Shown here: piece by piece, positions 944 through 31,399 of the stretch
Position numbering within the stretch: position 1 is the stretch's first letter
Layout of the letters: each line of letters begins with the position of its first letter
Assembly: GCF_000003605.2 (NCBI RefSeq)
Contig: NW_003109094.1
Location: forward strand, 73,094 to 107,556
Origin: Saccoglossus kowalevskii
Taxonomy: Eukaryota; Hemichordata; Enteropneusta; Harrimaniidae
Reading direction: 5' to 3'
DNA: 34,463 nucleotides
Notes under the pieces: generated by a model
The model's database searches: none
The model's input: only the letters and a program-made list of their open reading frames with translations
Told to the model about the DNA's origin: nothing
Program-made: the position numbers and the translations under genes

Positions 944-1733
944 CTGCCACGCCCCCTGAAGCTGAAAATCCTGCTCCTATTTCCCGCTCTTGTTGTCTTT
1001 CAAATGCTTGCCTGGTCATCTGGTGTCTTTGTACAGCCCGGCCTCCCATTAGTACCCTACTGGTGTAGTGAGTTCCGAATGCTCCAATGAATTCATCATA
1101 CAACGGGCAATCCAGGTGACACCCAATGTCGAACTCACAGCATGACACTGCTGGTAGACGACGTACGGCTTCTCTGAACTCATCACTGACGTCAGTAGTA
1201 AAAGGTGACAACCTCGCATCGTAAACAATGACTCGACCTATGATATCGACGAAGATGTTTTCCGTATTGAGAGTAGACTGTAACATTTGTTTATAAGACG
1301 CACTTGCACTGAAGGAAGCACTGAATATGTCGAATGATCCTTTAGCGCTTACACTGACATCAACTGACAGGGATTTGCGATAGGTTTTCTCTGATGTTAT
1401 GATCGACGTGGTAGAACCGAAATAACTTCCCATCTCGCGGATCAAGTCTGCCTGATCAGGAACCAAATAGAGTCGATCTGAACTGTATCTCACTTTGTTA
1501 TATGTTAACCCAACCACAGACTGCCGAAAACCTGGGTCTACAGATCCATCATCATGTCGAGGGTTCCCGTAAAATATATCATAGCCTCGTCCCAGGTAGC
1601 CGATATTAGGAAACGAAGTCGTTCCATCAGCTGGGATTTGAATCCTGTTTTTAGCAACTGTTTGGCGGGCTTGCGCTTCTAATGATTCAGCCGTGATCGT
1701 TTCTTCGGGGATATTTCGGTCAGCCCGTAGAGT
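944..1733 (-). CDS. Exon 20: MACPF (membrane attack complex/perforin) domain, first part
   Basis: This 790-nt exon encodes predicted residues 1218-1480. It has a helical start, then a GYLGRGYDIFYGNP motif followed by DPGFR, which is the classic entry to MACPF domains. Next come a Ser/Ala-rich stretch (FSASFSASASYKQML), probably the first membrane-inserting helical cluster, and the family signature FIGAFGTHYTSRVLMGG (normally Y-G-T-H-[YF]...GG). The exon ends at GAGFSASGGVAG, near where the second helical cluster would begin, so the domain is only about two-thirds present. The acceptor is attgtag|ACT, joining in phase 0 to exon 19, and the donor is GCAG|gttagt in phase 1. In known family members this fold makes beta-barrel pores in target membranes. 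Confidence 0.93.

Positions 1734-31399: not shown

Follow-up and report, generated by a model that had tools for sequence, protein, structure and literature searches.

This stretch of Saccoglossus kowalevskii DNA (the window, 34,463 nt in all) raises the question of whether a row of exons encoding recognition-type extracellular modules and a MACPF domain belongs to one gene, LOC100370048, and what the protein made from it would do. On the minus strand, from 31399 to 944, 21 coding exons (E1–E21; Table 1) join in one frame. The acceptor is AG in all 20 cases (E2–E21) and the donor is GT in all 21, while E1 begins at the ATG. The phases form an unbroken chain from E1 to E21 (0-1-1-1-1-1-1-2-1-0-1-1-2-1-0-1-2-2-2-1-0-1), and no internal stop was found in any of the 21 exons. 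Summed, the exons (4738 nt, 1579 codons) open with a signal-like start and run into a MACPF domain that is cut by the window edge. Because E21 closes at a splice donor (944), the gene continues beyond the window, and about 750 residues of the full protein fall outside it. The sequence-only reading of this DNA had counted 20 exons; the single frame and the splice signals were borne out, while the number rises to 21 with the addition of E6. Frame-shifting exon junctions, which that reading had named as a refutation, were not found, as the phases of the 21 exons chain.

The joined product is the S. kowalevskii LOC100370048 protein (P0016, 2313 aa), which it matches exactly up to E6 and again past it. 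LOC100370048 is an automatic NCBI model, annotated as uncharacterised, and E6 is absent from it. A search of the window with P0016 using tblastn recovered every exon except E6 (20 of the 21), while the part of P0016 past residue 1566 gave only a single chance row (E 9.7). A cysteine-flanked segment matching E6 is present in all four other hemichordate proteins covering that place (P0017, P0018, P0019 and P0001), and E6 is therefore probably a genuine exon. Of the 32 small exons possible in the intron that holds E6, the E6 pattern, which was composed after the segments of the relatives had been seen, matches E6 alone, and it matches none of the 326 in the remaining 18 introns. The omission of E6 from the NCBI model is probably an annotation error, or else E6 is an alternative exon.

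Full-length models P0016–P0019 (2313–2343 aa) come from three acorn-worm species in three families; P0017 (LOC144446518) and P0019 (LOC144434246) are both from Glandiceps talaboti, and P0018 is from Ptychodera flava. These relatives are automatic models, not cloned transcripts. They have the same module order over their full length, with Pfam recognition of the modules varying by species, while two other Ptychodera proteins, P0001 and P0020, are partial. Since the full-length models align over all modules, the comparison of sequences tells us that the window locus is most of one real, conserved hemichordate gene. A search for the same domain order in other genomes had been proposed as a check, and the order is indeed shared by the full-length models in Glandiceps and Ptychodera. 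The claim of one long chain with recognition-type modules ahead of MACPF is likewise upheld by four full-length automatic models in three acorn-worm species.

The modules themselves were compared with profiles and models. The window product matched Pfam families MACPF (E 3.7e-12), Kringle (E 2.5e-15), TSP1_ADAMTS (E 1.5e-20), fn3 (E 1.6e-11) and Lectin_C (E 6.6e-10, obtained on the E11–E13 piece), and PAN_1 matched over E7 and E8 (E 1.3e-4; 22.2 bits vs. a cut-off of 21.4). These matches confirm the kringle, PAN, lectin, second FN3 and MACPF calls made from the sequence alone. Of the two proposed FN3 modules, the first gave no Pfam match and is supported by a fold model of Ptychodera P0001, in which residues 138–346 align with tandem FN3 structures. 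Two of the three proposed TSP1 stretches were recognized by Pfam, while the middle one (E17) has no profile support and is inferred. The proposed EGF domain reduces to a cysteine-rich region, as the window piece gave no Pfam family at E ≤ 1. The name DNRLRE for the E14–E15 module found no support: the window piece gave no Pfam family at E ≤ 1, all five relatives together gave four unrelated Pfam families, each in a single relative and DNRLRE not among them, and every row against PDB profiles was above E 0.1. The E9–E10 module matched nothing in Pfam and gave only chance-level PDB rows. The EPN motif, which suits calcium-dependent sugar binding, is found in the lectin domain of four of the five relatives, and a dibasic site in the E11 linker ahead of the lectin in all five. 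In the plasminogen kringle paired acidic residues bind lysine, and such residues are not evident here when the sequence is read by eye. The MACPF domain is the most conserved module (67–70% identity to relatives), while the front modules range from 30% to 62%; this contrast would fit a fixed tool with a varying aim, and a weaker constraint on the front would explain it too. Exons with phase-1 borders, singly or in groups, carry the first front modules (E1–E6), and the same holds for the later modules.

Both the profile and the fold place the domain in the MACPF superfamily. Exon 21 covers positions 2–108 of the 214 in the MACPF profile, full P0016 matches at E 1.7e-24, and the FGTHY...GG signature is kept in five of five hemichordate proteins covering the site. 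Among the best 60 of 121 rows for P0016, the nearest solved MACPF structure was Toxoplasma PLP1 (TgPLP1, PDB 5oup; 66.1 bits), followed by MPEG1 (27.9 bits), and there was no C6–C9 entry; exon 21 alone scored 13.4 bits against C8 beta (E 0.42). This comparison of scores, which is not a tree, suggests a domain closer to those of PLP1 and MPEG1 than to those of C8 or C9. The compared PLP1 chain is the MACPF domain alone, and it has a YLGxGYDxxxGNP...DPGxR stretch in common with the acorn-worm domain. MPEG1 (perforin-2), the next named animal protein by sequence, has the MACPF fold, but the acorn-worm protein differs from it by its extra front modules and by the lack of a detected C-terminal membrane stretch. 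In hydropathy plots (19-residue mean) the six best windows of P0016 all start within residues 1–10, and in P0016, P0017 and P0018 none of the six best windows is near the C-terminus; P0019 has a single weak one (1.41 at 2205), and a lone peak near 634–640 is seen in P0017 and in P0019 (1.64 and 1.76).

The next kin outside hemichordates are mussel and metagenome MACPF proteins. The Mytilus proteins P0021, P0022, P0023 and P0025 (982–1112 aa) are 33–38% identical in MACPF (the first three) or 38% (P0025), with the alignment of P0022 and P0023 taking in part of the stalk, the segment which precedes the domain. P0021 and P0023 have a Pfam match to MACPF only and no front module, and each has a hydrophobic stretch near its own C-terminus (2.65 and 2.92). 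The metagenome proteins P0024 and P0026 consist of EGF followed by MACPF and align over the stalk and MACPF at 30–33%, with no kringle, lectin, FN3 or TSP1 match. P0026 also matched the C-terminal region of the hemichordate proteins (E 2.7e-7, probability 93%), in an alignment that spans the second PAN-like module and extends across an LSPxxIxN stretch. Its PAN-like piece alone reached 4.6% against the second hemichordate PAN-like module and 0.1% against the first, and the C-terminal tails of mussel proteins (3.8%) and P0024 (4.5%) gave no significant match to the hemichordate part. These few sequences hint that the stalk–MACPF core may be older than animals.

To the question of function, the answer to which we give an even chance is that LOC100370048 encodes a secreted, single-chain, surface-docking pore-former of about 2300 residues, likeliest in microbe defence. 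The protein is probably secreted and soluble, as judged from its signal-like start, its many cysteine-rich extracellular modules and the lack of a C-terminal membrane stretch. The lectin, kringle, PAN, FN3 and TSP1 modules would dock it on glycans or proteins of the target surface, after which the stalk and MACPF would oligomerise and insert a pore, perhaps following a cut at the dibasic linker ahead of the lectin. The C-terminal PAN-like, possibly Ig-like part would bind or space, and the likeliest role would be anti-microbial defence in coelom, gut or mucus. The front modules could plausibly have joined an older stalk–MACPF core through exon shuffling.

Several observations weigh against a docking pore-former, whose roles in recognition, pore formation and killing are plausible predictions. 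The alternating pattern of membrane-inserting amphipathic hairpins did not rise above that of equal-length control stretches of the same protein, of which 7–67% reach the value of the first hairpin region and 40–86% that of the second. Lectin_C was seen by Pfam in only one of five covering hemichordate proteins (P0016), and the kringle was above the cut-off in three of five (P0016, P0017 and P0019), below it in P0001 and unlisted in P0018; given this patchy recognition, ligand binding may have been lost. FN3, PAN, EGF-like and TSP1 modules are equally common in adhesion and developmental proteins. Developmental MACPF proteins are known in Torso-like and the astrotactins (PMC5483515, in part), and the main rival is a non-lytic MACPF protein of this kind, acting in matrix, adhesion or signalling during development. 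We consider it unlikely, as the FGTHY...GG signature is kept throughout the covering proteins, MACPF is the most conserved module, and the MACPF entries in those best 60 of 121 rows belong to PLP1 and MPEG1. The two transmembrane helices described for astrotactin (PMC5483515, in part) have no counterpart by hydropathy. A protein secreted into eggs or mucus as a predator defence or feeding aid appears less probable still. The principle is known from the apple snail egg protein PcPV2, which also combines a lectin with MACPF, and a soluble form is likely because P0016–P0019 lack the C-terminal hydrophobic stretch seen in mussel P0021 and P0023. However, PcPV2 is made of two disulphide-linked chains, one MACPF and one tachylectin-like lectin (PMC3667788, in part), while the acorn-worm protein is a single chain with a different lectin class.

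The resemblance to terminal complement has to be weighed as well. The sequence-only reading had proposed an analogue of complement on one chain, and its layout holds, with TSP1 ahead of MACPF and the same fold as in C6–C9, but kinship does not follow. In C6–C9 an LDLa domain lies between TSP1 and MACPF (PMC11312191, in part), while no LDLa family was found in P0016 at E ≤ 0.1, the sequence is more distant, and many extra modules stand in front. Since the domain scores nearer to PLP1 than to complement and LDLa is absent, the protein has a complement-like layout, probably without being a member. A true hemichordate component of the C6–C9 line is very improbable on the PLP1, MPEG1 and C8 beta scores given above, and the accessible part of a complement-gene survey names C6-like proteins in lancelets and tunicates and no hemichordate terminal component (PMC11312191). 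A one-chain hemichordate counterpart of complement recognition and attack, independent of C6–C9 and built by shuffling of pattern-recognition modules onto an older, protist-like stalk–MACPF core, so that TSP1–MACPF arose twice in deuterostomes, is a tentative idea which we regard as possible but doubtful. Finally, a break into separate genes had been named as a refutation, and one Ptychodera paralogue is in fact annotated as two pieces, which counts against a single chain. P0001 (1092 aa), one of eight proteins obtained from 4025 candidates, is 45% identical over E1–E15 and stops directly after the E15 equivalent, where TSP1 begins; P0020 starts late in the third TSP1 module, and the contig recorded for each has 45,584,913 bases. 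However, the stretch absent between the two is the TSP1 part, P0017, P0018 and P0019 all cross the E15/E16 border, and the intron there is only 137 bp long in the window, with neither AATAAA nor ATTAAA in it. Most simply, P0001 and P0020 are a single gene split in annotation at the TSP1 part, and two or more genes fused by wrong splicing are scarcely credible.

The architecture is real, conserved and odd, belongs to a known superfamily, and is already in databases with no function assigned. The description of the protein as undescribed thus needs qualifying: no publication that describes it in its title or in the opening of its abstract was found in open-licence PMC articles, a scope that leaves out preprints and, for the most part, subscription papers, while an NCBI entry, LOC100370048, exists. 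Invertebrates were long held to lack a terminal complement complex, and one has now been proposed in a tunicate (PMC11593599, in part). If the acorn-worm protein does bind microbes and form pores, recognition and attack would reside on one chain with a MACPF kinship other than that of C6–C9. It also offers a well-defined target, open to cloning, for experiments on the way in which MACPF proteins are aimed.

Table 1. Coding exons of LOC100370048 in the window (phases are those at the start and end of each exon).
Exon	Positions	Strand	Content	Phase	Remarks
E1	31138..31399	-	ATG, signal-like start, EGF-like cysteine-rich region part 1	0 to 1	tblastn with P0016 100% at 31399-31139
E2	23545..23649	-	EGF-like region part 2	1 to 1	no Pfam match
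E3	22696..23025	-	FN3 number 1	1 to 1	fold model of P0001, not Pfam
E4	20411..20704	-	FN3 number 2	1 to 1	fn3 E 1.6e-11
E5	15988..16284	-	kringle	1 to 1	Kringle E 2.5e-15
E6	14708..14749	-	42-nt linker exon, two cysteines	1 to 1	not in NCBI model
E7	13926..14148	-	PAN-like module part 1	1 to 2	PAN_1 over E7+E8
E8	12861..13123	-	PAN-like module part 2	2 to 1	
E9	12138..12355	-	module without named family, part 1	1 to 0	
E10	11695..11848	-	E9-E10 module, part 2	0 to 1	
E11	10766..10969	-	conserved cysteine-containing segment, then variable linker with dibasic site	1 to 1	
E12	9503..9791	-	C-type lectin domain part 1, with EPN	1 to 2	
E13	8811..8884	-	C-type lectin domain, end	2 to 1	
E14	7611..7939	-	module earlier labelled DNRLRE, part 1	1 to 0	label unsupported
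E15	6865..7006	-	E14-E15 module, end	0 to 1	
E16	6544..6727	-	TSP1 number 1	1 to 2	TSP1_ADAMTS best stretch P0016 1065-1118
E17	5345..5515	-	TSP1-like segment	2 to 2	inferred
E18	2999..3088	-	TSP1 number 3, part 1	2 to 2	
E19	2406..2512	-	TSP1 number 3, end	2 to 1	
E20	1845..2014	-	stalk preceding MACPF	1 to 0	helical in P0020 model; 62-64% identity to relatives
E21	944..1733	-	MACPF start and first half, FGTHY...GG	0 to 1	then splice donor

The introns contain some further features. The E17–E18 intron carries a 157-bp tandem repeat (3699–4369; 4.3 copies, 94% matches). In intron 1 there is a 21-bp tandem repeat (24112–24458; 16.5 copies), where long stop-free frames occur on both strands, and an open reading frame on the plus strand (25576–26160) that matches DUF5641 (E 1.5e-20), which we take to be the tail of BEL/Pao-type retroelement polyproteins.
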